Shown here piece by piece: positions 23,266 to 57,962 of a stretch of DNA of 64,000 bases. How positions within the stretch are numbered: the stretch's first letter is position 1; the number at the start of each line of letters is the position of its first letter. Location: contig NZ_JAAQPI010000017.1 of the NCBI RefSeq assembly GCF_011683955.1, positions 62,001 to 126,000 on the forward strand, read 5' to 3'. The translations under genes and the position numbers were made by a program. Under the pieces are notes generated by a model, which was given only the letters and a program-made list of their open reading frames with translations, searched no databases and was not told where the DNA came from. The DNA is from Pseudomaricurvus alkylphenolicus (GTDB lineage Bacteria > Pseudomonadota > Gammaproteobacteria > Pseudomonadales > Cellvibrionaceae).

Positions 23266-25806
23266 ATGTCTGAAACTGGTGTGTTGATCAATCCCGATTC
23301 GCTGCAGGGTTTTATTCTGACCCGACAGTGGGAGGATGTAGCGTTTAAAACACCATTCGGGCGCTTGCGCCAGCTGCAGATGACCTTGTGGTTGATCTCC
23401 GACCGGGGGCCCGTAAAGGTGGTTGTGGAGGGGCAGACCGCCGTTTTCTTTTTACCCGCTGAAGATCTTTCGTCAGCCAGCGCCGTGCTTGATCGCTCCC
23501 TGGGGAAATCCGCAGCCCACCCCTCAGTGACTCCGGTCTGGGAGGCGCGAGCTCTGGATTTAAAGGATTTCCGCCATCGACCTGTCGTCGGTTTGTACTT
23601 TCGTGAGCAGCGAACACTCTATAAAGCCAGGGATGCGCTTAAACGTCAGGGGTTTGAGCCACTGGAAGCCGATATACATCCCACAGACCGTTACCTGATG
23701 GAGCGGTTTGTCACCGGCGCAATTCAACTGCAGGGTAACCTCGAAAACAAAGACTCCTATCTACAGGCAAATAACCCTCGTCTCGCCCCCGCAGAATTCC
23801 AACCTTATTACCGTGTTCTGTCGCTCGACATTGAGACCGACATGCGTGCCGAGCAACTCTACAGCATTGGTGCCGTGGTAACCGAGACCAAAACACCAGC
23901 GGCTGAACCGCAGCGGCGAGTGTTTATGGTGGGCGAGGGCGAACCGCCTGCGAGTCATCCATACCTGCATTATGTTGATGATGAACGGCAGTTGTTGAAT
24001 CAGTTTCTGTCCTGGTTCCAGCAAATGGACCCGGATGTCATCATCGGTTGGAACGTCATTAATTTTGACCTGCGGGCGTTGCAGCGTAAGGCGGATGAGT
24101 TGCGGGTGCCGTTTGTTTTTGGCCGTGACGGGCAACGAATTGACTGGCGTCAATCCCGCGGTGACGATGATCATTACACGTTGCTGGTGCCCGGCCGCCT
24201 GGTGATGGACGGCATTGATACGCTCCGTTCAGCCACATACAACTTCGAAAGTTTTTCATTGGAGTCTGTGGCTCGGGAGTTGTTGCAACGGGGCAAGCTC
24301 AGTGAGGATGTGGACCATCGTGGCGAGGCGATCACCGAGCAATTCCTGCATGACAAACCGGCACTGGCGGCATATAACCTGGAAGATTGCCAGCTGGTCT
24401 GGGATATTTTTGTCAAAGCCCGTCTGATCGATTTTGGCGTGGAGAGAGCGCGTTTGACAGGCTTGGCGATGGATCGCTTCGGTGGTTCGGTGGCGTCGTT
24501 TGATAACCGTTATCTTCCCCGTCTGCATCGACAGGGTTTTGTGGCTCCTGCTCTGCCGGAGAATCCGGTGGGGGTCGGCAGCCCCGGTGGTTATGTGATG
24601 GATTCACTGCCCGGGTTTTATAACCATGTGCTGGTGCTGGATTTTAAGTCGCTGTACCCGAGTATCATCCGCACCTTTCAGATTGACCCTTTGGCGCGAG
24701 TGTGTGGCTGGGAGCATGAGCGTTTGAAGGGACTGGAGCGTGAGCCCCATTGGGACAGGCATGAAACCGCAGAGGTGGACCGCGAGTTGTTGGCGCCGGG
24801 CTTTAATGGCGCGGTGTTTTTAAAGGAGCGCGCGCTGCTGCCTAATATTATCGGTGAGTTGTGGGCGGCGCGGGATCAGGCCAAACGCCTGGGCAATGGG
24901 GCGATGTCTCAGGCGATCAAGATCATCATGAATTCGTTTTACGGTGTGTTGGGCACACCGGGATGTCGCTTCTTTGATTACCGGTTGCCAAGTTCGATTA
25001 CGCTGCGTGGGCATCAGATTTTGACGCGCTCGCGGGAGTTGATTGAAGAGCAGGGGCATCGGGTGATTTATGGGGATACGGATTCTGTGTTTGTGTGTCT
25101 GGCGGGTGTGGATCAGTTGAGTCCGCCAGAGATTGATCAGGTCGGCCAGCAGTTGGCGGAGAATTTGAATCGGTGGTGGCGGGATTTTTTGCTGGCCGAG
25201 TATCAGTTAGAGAGTTTTCTGGAAATCGAGTTTGAGACCCACTATAGCCGTTTTGTGATGCCGACAATTCGTGGTGCGGATACGGGCAGTAAGAAGCGTT
25301 ATTCGGGGTTGGTGGAGAAGGCGGGAGTTGAGCCGGAGTTGGTGTTTAAGGGCCTGGAGGCGGTACGAACGGATTGGACGCCGCTGGCGCGGGAGTTTCA
25401 GCGGGAGTTGTATCGGCGGGTGTTTTTTGATGAGCCTTACCGGGAGTATCTGCTGGGGTTGTTGCAGGAGATTCGTGACGGTGAGCACGACGGTGAATTG
25501 TTTTATCGCAAGCGGCTGCGGCGGCATTTGGAGGATTATGTGCGTAATGTTCCGCCCCATGTGCAGGCAGCGCGTAAGGCGGATGAATGGCTTGAGAGAG
25601 AGGGGCTGCCGCAGCGATATAAACGGGGTTCCTGGGTACAGTATGCGTTGACAGTGAATGGACCTGAGCCGCTGGAGCATTTGCAGTCGCCGCTGGATTA
25701 TGAGTTGTTGATTGAGCGGCAAATTGTGCCGATTGCCGACGGGATTTTGCAGTTTCTGGGGACCTCGTTTGAGGAGATTGCGGATCAGCAGTTGGGGTTG
25801 TTTTAG
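23266..25806 (+). CDS. polB: DNA polymerase II (family B)
   Basis: Family B repair and translesion polymerase with 3'-5' exonuclease. It has 846 residues (E. coli 783). The exonuclease motif I DIET is at 188-191, polymerase motif A DFKSLYPSII near 459, and motif C YGDTDSV near 602. In E. coli it is SOS-controlled; no LexA box (CTGT-N8-ACAG) was seen just upstream here. The ATG at 23266 is chosen over a TTG two codons upstream. The last 800 bp are C-poor on the coding strand compared with the first half. A degenerate copy of the dispersed repeat begins 15 bp after the stop. Confidence 0.95.
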   Translation: MSETGVLINPDSLQGFILTRQWEDVAFKTPFGRLRQLQMTLWLISDRGPVKVVVEGQTAVFFLPAEDLSSASAVLDRSLGKSAAHPSVTPVWEARALDLKDFRHRPVVGLYFREQRTLYKARDALKRQGFEPLEADIHPTDRYLMERFVTGAIQLQGNLENKDSYLQANNPRLAPAEFQPYYRVLSLDIETDMRAEQLYSIGAVVTETKTPAAEPQRRVFMVGEGEPPASHPYLHYVDDERQLLNQFLSWFQQMDPDVIIGWNVINFDLRALQRKADELRVPFVFGRDGQRIDWRQSRGDDDHYTLLVPGRLVMDGIDTLRSATYNFESFSLESVARELLQRGKLSEDVDHRGEAITEQFLHDKPALAAYNLEDCQLVWDIFVKARLIDFGVERARLTGLAMDRFGGSVASFDNRYLPRLHRQGFVAPALPENPVGVGSPGGYVMDSLPGFYNHVLVLDFKSLYPSIIRTFQIDPLARVCGWEHERLKGLEREPHWDRHETAEVDRELLAPGFNGAVFLKERALLPNIIGELWAARDQAKRLGNGAMSQAIKIIMNSFYGVLGTPGCRFFDYRLPSSITLRGHQILTRSRELIEEQGHRVIYGDTDSVFVCLAGVDQLSPPEIDQVGQQLAENLNRWWRDFLLAEYQLESFLEIEFETHYSRFVMPTIRGADTGSKKRYSGLVEKAGVEPELVFKGLEAVRTDWTPLAREFQRELYRRVFFDEPYREYLLGLLQEIRDGEHDGELFYRKRLRRHLEDYVRNVPPHVQAARKADEWLEREGLPQRYKRGSWVQYALTVNGPEPLEHLQSPLDYELLIERQIVPIADGILQFLGTSFEEIADQQLGLF

Positions 25807-26179
25807 TAGGTCCCGGGTATGTGCCACTACCGGCAGCTGGGGGGTGCCTTAACCGGGCGCCTTCAGCGCTCCTCTTTTACGCTCCGAAAACACTCCCTCC
25901 AGCCGCCCTCACTCTGAGGTTCGCTGAGTGCATTGCCTCATTGGTTGGGTGGGATGACTGGGAGTTGGTTGATCTGGATCAGCGTTGGTGCCGACAATTT
26001 TAGCGATGCTGTTAGCTGGAGGCCTTATAAACTCTGATTTATGTCTATTTTTCATTAAAAATTGATTCTGTTGCTGCCTTTCGGCGCAAGTGCATAGCAG
26101 GTTCATGGGCTATAACTACTAGGCACACGTAAGAAATCTATGCCGCGCCCAGCCCCTGAGCGTAGGCAGGGAGGTGACA
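25807..26179. other. 373-bp intergenic tract after polB
   Basis: Contains an internally deleted copy of the dispersed repeat (25822-25940), then about 240 bp of AT-rich sequence with no supported gene or clear promoter, ending in the GGAGG ribosome site of the next gene. Confidence 0.75.
25822..25940 (+). repeat. Dispersed structured repeat, internally deleted copy
   Basis: 119 bp from TGCCACT (a decayed TGCCTCA) to TGCCTCA at 25934-25940. The right arm CACTCCCTCCAGCCGCC (25891-25907) pairs 11 of 13 with GGCAGCTGGGGGG (25832-25844). The CTTCAGCGCTCC...TTTACGCTCCGAAAACA block matches the 57.8-kb copy, but the inner hairpin is missing, about 67 bp shorter than full copies. Confidence 0.75.
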
Positions 26180-36999: not shown

Positions 37000-37098
37000 T
37001 CGTTGTTATTTAAGTTGTATGGGAGACTAATCTGAACCTTTTTATTTCCGCTTCGTGCCAAAAGCTGAACTTCGGCGTGGCACAGTTTGTCTTCGTGT

Positions 37099-37125
37099 GT
37101 AGCAGCGCGCTCCGAGCGCGACCGG
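37099..37125 (+). repeat. REP-like palindrome, family 2 (GTAGCAGCGCGCTC type)
   Basis: GTAGCAGCGCGCTCCGAGCG followed by CGACCGG; CGCGCT pairs with AGCGCG. The same start recurs at 45552 with only two differences over 27 bp, defining a second REP family in this window. Confidence 0.65.
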
Positions 37126-37223
37126 GTTGGCAGCGTCTCTTTGCACCATAACCGGCCATTGGAATTAGGTGTTTTTCCCAGGTCTTTTCTTTGCGGATTG
37201 GACGAAAGCGGCTGCTGATTTTG

Positions 37224-37406
37224 TGCCACAACGGGCGGCTGGGTGTCCGTTGGAGGGGCACGCTACCGGCCCTCCCGGCTTCCCTCAGTCCCCAATGAGC
37301 CAAGCAAAAAACGCTTGTCTCATTGAATCCTTCGGCGTTCGCTCGAAATGCCCCTCCAACGAACACCCAGCCACCCTTTAGATCGAGGTACCCCGACTTT
37401 ATCTCA
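37224..37406 (+). repeat. Dispersed structured repeat, copy with divergent stems
   Basis: 183 bp between TGCCACA and TATCTCA (decayed TGCCTCA ends). Outer arms 37234-37260 and 37349-37375 pair 25 of 27. The inner hairpin is CAATGAG-C-CAAGC, loop AAAAAAC, GCTTG-T-CTCATTG (37293-37325). The stem sequences are unlike those of the 38.6- and 57.8-kb copies, yet the lengths, the loop and the C/T mismatch are the same. Confidence 0.85.
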
Positions 37407-38630: not shown

Positions 38631-38816
38631 TGCCTCAATCGGCGGCTGGAGGTTCCGTTTTCCGAGCGGTCGGGCGGCCCTCCGGCCTTCCCTCAGTCGC
38701 CAAAAAGCCCGGCAAAAAGCTCCGGTCTTTTTAGCTCCTTCGGCGCCCTCTTTGATGCTCGGAAAACGGAACCACCAGCCACCTTAGTTCTGCGGTGAAT
38801 GAACTGCTGTGCCTCA
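38631..38816 (+). repeat. Dispersed structured repeat, full 186-bp copy
   Basis: Exactly 186 bp from TGCCTCA (38631-38637) to TGCCTCA (38810-38816). Outer arms 38641-38667 and 38757-38783 pair 25 of 27. The inner hairpin is AAAAAG-C-CCGG, nine-base loop, CCGG-T-CTTTTT (38702-38732). It shares the internal block GGGCGGCCCTCC-GGC-TTCCCTCAGTC with the other full copies. Confidence 0.88.
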
Positions 38817-57721: not shown

Positions 57722-57784
57722 GGGTTCTGTGCCTCATGCCGTGGTTGGTGCGTTGGTTCCGGGGCTTCGGGTTCTGTGCCTCAT
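57722..57784 (+). repeat. Duplicated 16-bp end of the dispersed repeat unit
   Basis: GGGTTCTGTGCCTCAT occurs at 57722-57737 and 57769-57784 (47-bp period). Each contains the boundary heptamer TGCCTCA. It may be a partial, flanking copy of the 5' edge of the structured repeat. Confidence 0.7.
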
Positions 57785-57962
57785 AAGGCGGTCGGGGCGT
57801 TGTTTTCGGAGCTGTCGGGCGGCCCTCCAGGCTTCCCTCAGTCCCGAAAAAGCCCGGCAAAAAACGCCGGTCTTTTTCACTCCTTCGGCGCTCCTCCTTT
57901 ACGCTCCGAAAACAACGCCCCGACCACCTCTGAAACCGCAGTTCTCCATGTCATTTGCCTCA
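57777..57962 (+). repeat. Dispersed structured repeat, full 186-bp copy
   Basis: Exactly 186 bp from TGCCTCA (57777-57783) to TGCCTCA (57956-57962). Outer arms 57786-57812 and 57903-57929 pair 26 of 27. The inner hairpin is GAAAAAG-C-CCGGC, loop AAAAAAC, GCCGG-T-CTTTTTC (57846-57878). Its A-run/T-run form resembles a bidirectional terminator, but the other copies show the fold is kept even where those runs are absent. Confidence 0.88.

Follow-up and report, generated by a model that had tools for sequence, protein, structure and literature searches.

The minus strand of a dispersed repeat in the genome of Pseudomaricurvus alkylphenolicus carries a selected fold, in which a three-way junction caps a long stem whose sequence is nearly free, and the orientation of the host copies is tied to replication, whose direction was inferred from GC skew. 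New here are the minus-strand fold, the replication-linked orientation and a family that extends across the order. The finding comprises no protein. The window analysed is a stretch of 64,000 nucleotides from contig NZ_JAAQPI010000017.1 (positions 62,001 to 126,000), and the following features were located in it, with positions counted from its first letter.

38631..38816, minus strand (the strand with the selected fold): copy 1, the element between TGCCTCA repeats
38641..38667, unstranded: left arm of copy 1, outer stem P1
38757..38783, unstranded: right arm of copy 1, outer stem P1
38676..38687, minus strand: side hairpin P3 of copy 1, with a nearly invariant GGA loop and a covarying stem (limits by eye)
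38702..38732, minus strand: hairpin P4 of copy 1, containing an A.G mismatch that hardly ever varies, GAC facing GGC on the minus strand (limits by eye)
57777..57962, minus strand: copy 2, flanked by a gene with an FGAR amidotransferase (PurL) domain and a gene with an FKBP isomerase domain
57730..57776, unstranded: additional TGCCTCA unit immediately upstream of copy 2
37224..37406, minus strand: copy 3, a member of the subfamily with arm GTGTCCGTTGGAGGGGC
37055..37223, unstranded: extra left module of the copy-3 subfamily, the roughly 169 bp to the left of copy 3
about 25804-25907, minus strand: deletion remnant that lacks P3 and P4 but keeps parts of the outer stem and the core's right part

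The first-pass annotation, made from the window alone, described two 186-bp copies that start and end with TGCCTCA, and both do so (38631-38816 and 57777-57962). It also reported pairing between 27-bp arms, with 25, 25 and 26 paired positions. The pairing stands, but the counts do not: the best ungapped 27-bp arms of the copies at 38631, 57777 and 37224 (copies 1, 2 and 3) pair at 25, 26 and 25 positions. Copy 3 is indeed 183 bp long, with TGCCACA and TATCTCA at its ends, but it is not merely a decayed copy, since it belongs to the subfamily with the left module of about 169 bp. This module is whole in six other loci (L131, L101, L090, L135, L134 and L098; 168-169 bp, 85-95% identity), with partial matches at further loci. 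Units similar to the one upstream of copy 2 precede three further copies (L016, L018 and L020; by eye). The deletion remnant scored an E-value of 1.2e-5 in one covariance-model search and 3.3e-5 in another, and a TGCCTCA follows it at 25934. As a general boundary, however, TGCCTCA fails: in the host genome conserved sequence runs on leftward and, weakly, rightward, and most relatives' copies do not retain the heptamer at the element ends (by eye).

A search beyond the window showed that the three copies are part of a larger family, with 64 members in the host and others in its relatives. The core pattern, with one mismatch allowed, yields these 64 core copies across the host genome (G000; 8.88 Mb in 70 contigs), compared to 1 for a reversed-pattern control. 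The collection of host copies has 60 rows, of which one is a false anchor (L092 at 4419) and the other 59 are copies; L090, L101 and L114 were merged, being identical to L103 over the compared stretch, and L016 and, apparently, L014 were filtered out. Gene context and local skew were counted for 57 of the 64 copies, two copies with short flanks also being excluded. Likewise, 57 copies were aligned, and the analyses of fold stability, nearest neighbours and parsimony use 56 (L099 dropped). Across 41 aligned host copies the ends of the outer stem are conserved, while its middle is hypervariable. The very different arms found in genome G014 had raised the idea that every insertion acquires its arms from the DNA of the host, which was rejected because arm bases are partly common (GGTAAAAGG).

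Several host loci are rearranged. One copy (L038/L080; G000:C55 near 317438-317871) carries between its P4 arms an insert of about 270 bp, whose inverted ends span about 33 bp and which is apparently another miniature element (by eye). At L128 (about 1100-1530; G000:C34:158600-159030) the usual flanks and outer arms enclose a larger, different hairpin where the conserved core would be, indicating that stem and cap are exchangeable. A sub-threshold Rfam match to Ysr224 (29.6 bits, gathering score 70) lies inside this foreign core. L134 and L135, which are of the copy-3 type, have apparently lost a hairpin between short CAACG repeats (by eye), as slippage across an extruded hairpin would give.

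The anatomy of the fold was determined from 61 sequences, drawn from 12 genomes and aligned on the minus strand. A long stem, P1, is followed by an A-rich strand, a short stem, P2, and a three-way junction that bears hairpin P3, with its nearly invariant GGA loop, and a rod. The rod consists of a CC/GG pair, two facing GANNGA-type strands, which may form tandem G.A pairs, and hairpin P4 with its almost constant A.G mismatch. The unit is 150-190 nt long, with three helices inside the outer stem. For 24 pairs tested, 88.5% of cells pair, and two-sided changes occur in 243 cells, compared to 65.7 plus or minus 6.7 in shuffles and at most 100 with slid partners. When 36 predicted pairs were followed through the 41 aligned host copies, 25 were preserved in at least one sequence by changes on both sides.

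The first-pass annotation had attributed the pairing of divergent arms either to selection for a fold or to copying between the arms, and had proposed a covariation analysis. Core covariation is far above both the shuffled and the slid controls and, with the nearest-neighbour test and the same internal structure across 12 genomes, bears out selection for the fold. In 44 nearest-neighbour comparisons (56 copies), we counted 156 two-sided pair changes against 24 expected, 131 of them from one Watson-Crick (WC) pair to another, and 163 one-sided changes against 426 expected. Stems and unpaired positions diverge equally fast in these comparisons (10.3% and 9.6%). Parsimony on the tree of the 56 host copies gives 144 WC-to-WC double events, 82 of them on terminal branches, at a cost of 1.5 steps for a joint change that biases the method toward inferring such changes.

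Mismatches that remain in the stems indicate which strand folds. Wobble pairs are tolerated better than A.C in RNA and in single-stranded DNA alike, so this test identifies the strand and not the molecule. On the strand as read, host copies have 102 A.C and 13 G.T mismatches, totals that include three badly anchored rows (L080, L077 and the second L092). Minus-strand mismatches in 65 copies from relatives, some of them near-identical array members, number 119 G.U and 27 A.C; this sample combines 49 of 63 model matches (the 14 left out were mostly low-scoring) with 16 others, and A.C and G.T were scored alike in both counts. One-sided events on the minus strand of the host copies, as reconstructed by parsimony, comprise 45 WC-to-G.U, 9 WC-to-A.C and 49 changes to other mismatches. 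This excess of G.U over A.C shows that the minus strand is the selected fold. Of 56 host copies, 55 have the more stable RNA fold on this strand, and all 56 do with DNA parameters. The G.U excess is weak in G014 alone (15 vs 12 A.C) and in the 16 relatives' copies counted separately (17 vs 13). Genome G388 has copies in both replication orientations and a ratio of 38 to 2, which is therefore not explained by a replication-linked mutation bias.

The same mismatches bear on the possibility that one arm is corrected from the other, by quasipalindrome template switching or cruciform conversion, so that pairing is kept without selection for the fold. Such correction would account for the many two-sided stem changes, among them the 144 WC-to-WC events; the hairpin loss between CAACG repeats at L134 and L135 suits extrusion during replication (by eye), and the weak asymmetry in G014 also fits. 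However, arm-to-arm copying is blind to strand and would yield no strand difference in the leftover mismatches, whereas those of the host and of the pooled relatives are strongly asymmetric, as are those of G388 despite its two orientations. P3, P4 and the unpaired motifs are conserved too. We therefore disfavour copying between arms as the main cause of the pairing and consider it very improbable.

Relative to GC skew, 58 of 61 host copies lie in one orientation (p-value 3e-14, with copies treated as independent); the other 3 of the 64 are on unsampled contigs. Within a host contig, copies mostly face the same way. The sign of the skew agrees with the majority orientation in all 13 contigs, weakly in C45, and in contig C11 the orientation of the element switches where the skew switches. 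Replication direction is inferred here from GC skew in 20-kb samples, and the second sample of C45 is near zero. In the same samples, the strand of the genes matches the orientation of the element in no more than 8 of 13 contigs. A control repeat from the same genome was found in one orientation relative to skew at 18 of 36 sites (36 of its 46 perfect matches were sampled). This unrelated polar repeat, GCGTAGGGYGGRTTAGRCG, occurs in 131 places with up to 2 mismatches, about twice the number of the element, and is without replication orientation. Local skew agrees with orientation for 54 of 57 host copies, 10 of 12 in G014, 3 of 3 in G027 and 31 of 41 across all relatives.

The G-rich strand, on which the plus strand of the element mostly lies, is the leading strand and also the template for the lagging strand; the folded strand is thus mostly opposite the lagging-strand template. 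Some relatives carry close inverted pairs in which a plus copy precedes a minus copy and neither orientation prevails (six in G388, one each in G280 and G298), and alternating arrays were seen in 20-kb stretches of G147 and G120. The spacers of inverted pairs at four G388 loci (L248, L250, L251 and L253) hold short tandem repeats that vary from locus to locus, for example GGGTTT or CAGATTC units (by eye). A polar chromosome signal of the KOPS, Chi or fork-site kind, held in orientation by selection on replication or segregation, would explain the common orientation of the 58 host copies. We regard this as highly improbable, given that there are only 64 copies in 8.9 Mb and none in five genomes of the same genus, and that relatives have inverted pairs.

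Copies are mostly extragenic, with a bias to the 3' ends of genes, and doublets and arrays exist. With flanking genes called by a simple longest-ORF rule, 21 of 57 host copies lie between convergent genes, 31 between co-directional genes and 5 between divergent genes. No clear orientation relative to the flanking genes was seen (18 copies at (+,+) and 13 at (-,-) of the 57), nor was a conserved promoter or terminator around the copies in the 41-copy host alignment (by eye).

The main rival explanation remains a host function at the RNA level, in which the copies are minus-strand structured RNA genes or mRNA 3' elements and their spread and orientation are secondary. The strand-specific tolerance of G.U is consistent with this, as are the conserved three-way junction, with its GGA loop and purine-rich GANNGA on both sides of P4, and the preference for gene 3' ends. 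It is at odds with the unclear orientation to flanking genes, with the promoter and terminator result and with the failure to find the element in the five same-genus genomes. Furthermore, orientation tracks replication, so a minus-strand transcript would oppose the fork. On balance, we rate a host RNA function as rather unlikely.

Among 37 relatives, the first covariance model detected the element in G014 (12 copies) and G027 (4 copies), and it was not found in the five genomes of the same genus. These five (G001-G005) are 4.0-5.7 Mb in size, compared to 8.9 Mb for the host. Among 390 genomes of the order, the same model found the element in 12 other genomes, and the family covers nine genera including that of the host. 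A second, class-wide model gave eight single matches in other genomes among 369. Only the match in G496 (E-value 1.5e-13), the one convincing member outside the order, has the whole anatomy; its arms differ in sequence yet pair, and it lies directly behind a gene resembling a restriction specificity subunit (by eye). The seven others, at 20-25 bits, were excluded from membership. All counts per genome are lower bounds, with up to 7 candidates scored in the order and up to 10 in the class, under stricter filters.

The loci of G027 and G070 have the core in common and different arms, and no match was found between their flanking sequences among the few loci compared, so turnover of positions is judged from few loci. 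Genomes G215 and G235 are identical over the 700-770 bp stretches searched and differ at two element loci (L223/L224 and L155/L227). The differences consist of a copy with arms of two subtypes and a site with and without the element; both loci are near the ends of MAG contigs, where misassembly is possible. They are the only strain differences seen, and no empty site with clean ends or a target duplication was found.

The first-pass annotation knew of no named element with these features, which holds for Rfam 15 and the searches made here, with an overlooked earlier description being possible. The window has no Rfam match at the gathering score, and the best match on copy 1 under a relaxed threshold reached 12.9 bits (E-value 2.8). 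For 12 other loci searched at E-values up to 0.1, none of the five matches fell on the conserved element. At L149:1734-1911, about 80 bp away from the copy in G255, there is a 6S RNA gene (RF00013, 101 bits). Two blastn queries against plasmids and phages gave no match at an E-value of 0.01, and viral contigs gave none with a core pattern that matches 76 of 266 collected loci and, of the three window copies, two. We recognised no description of the element in the literature searched, which mostly excluded subscription papers.

Chances appear evenly balanced that the element is a non-autonomous, dispersed, REP/REPIN-like repeat of very large size that is coupled to replication. Its folded minus strand, as RNA or as single-stranded DNA, would be recognised through the junction by a putative trans-acting enzyme. 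The stem would serve mainly as a double-stranded handle, in which pairing is needed and sequence is free. New copies would be inserted in step with the replication fork, fixing their orientation, and only copies that fold would be propagated, such that pairing is retained while the stem sequence drifts. The patchy spread and copy number of the family (64 in the host, none in five same-genus genomes) count for this reading, as do the share of double changes on terminal branches (82 of 144), the strand preference, the orientation of the host copies, their gene context, and the pairs and arrays. Counted against it are the lack of a clean empty site among those compared, the position of the folded strand opposite the lagging-strand template, the inverted pairs of G388, G280 and G298, the 31 of 41 agreement with skew among relatives, the weak strand asymmetry in G014 and the 16 separately counted copies, and the fact that no mobilising gene was identified for the element. 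More tentatively, it may represent a new class of mobile structured nucleic acid, found across the order, that is recognised by its fold, copied by an enzyme through RNA or through the strand that is not the lagging-strand template, and inserted at the fork in a fixed orientation.

Extragenic repeats are common in bacteria, but their sequence rarely reveals the form, DNA, single-stranded DNA or RNA, in which they move. Here, three signals are readable in one family: the strand on which the fold is selected, the near freedom of the stem sequence and the position relative to replication. Combined, these signals open the route of spread to testing, and the best-studied model of single-strand transposition is disfavoured because the folded strand does not coincide with the lagging-strand template.

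Sequence-variable arms that keep their pairing are also seen in integron attC sites, where it is the folded single strand that matters. The element departs from attC in its conserved junction and in the length of its arms, about 27 bp or more. ERIC/IRU, Correia/NEMIS, RUP and YPAL are non-autonomous intergenic repeats of about 100-160 bp. Neither a three-way junction covarying across an order nor a replication-locked orientation is a known feature of any of them. Like the element they are small repeats; they are mobile, and RNA structure motifs occur in some (PMC2229807). A survey of 40 bacterial genomes describes 92 stem-loop families that are repeated, foldable and mostly intergenic; the element resembles them by description and may be among them (PMC2267715). 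Hairpin and palindromic elements of mitochondria are similarly mobile hairpins by description, but are organellar (PMC4478555, PMC5910586, PMC7218506).

A more direct comparison is with a classical REP/BIME mobilised by a RAYT, or with a MITE derived from IS200/IS605. The element shares with these its extragenic, dispersed and foldable nature, the inverted pairs and alternating arrays, and the tie to replication. In the host, its inverted arms lie inside direct TGCCTCA repeats, and no duplication of the kind expected from a TIR/TSD arrangement was observed. IS200/IS605 transposition would place the folded strand on the lagging-strand template, but in 58 of 61 host copies the fold-selected minus strand of the element is the one opposite the G-rich strand (direction from skew), which argues against a plain IS200/IS605 route. 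Matches to Y1_Tnp (PF01797) were found in 10 of 13 element-bearing genomes (none in G215, G235 or G255), but also in 8 of 11 genomes with no match to the element model. None of the 18 Y1 loci scanned, from 23 Y1 matches in element-bearing genomes, had the element within about 1.5 kb. As a mobiliser, RAYT/Y1 was rejected for want of a consistent partner across element-bearing and element-free genomes, and this argues against a plain REP route. Therefore, we consider both classical forms improbable.

REP/BIME/REPIN sequences, for which single-strand mobility through RAYT (TnpA-REP) is suspected (PMC3733652, PMC3116915, PMC6006769), are nonetheless similar to the element in being extragenic, dispersed and palindromic, in lying downstream of genes, and in forming inverted doublets and alternating arrays. 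They differ from it in size, with a hairpin of 20-65 nt compared to a branched fold of 150-190 nt, and the element further departs from them in its nearly free stem sequence, its conserved cap and the selection of its fold on one strand. The REP foot tag, GTAG (or CGTC), is not conserved in the 41-copy alignment (by eye). Since none of the features that define REPs, namely the size, the tag and the RAYT link, was found, we do not class the element as a REP. The best reading is that it is a dispersed extragenic folding repeat, with REP/BIME/REPIN as the closest known kind.
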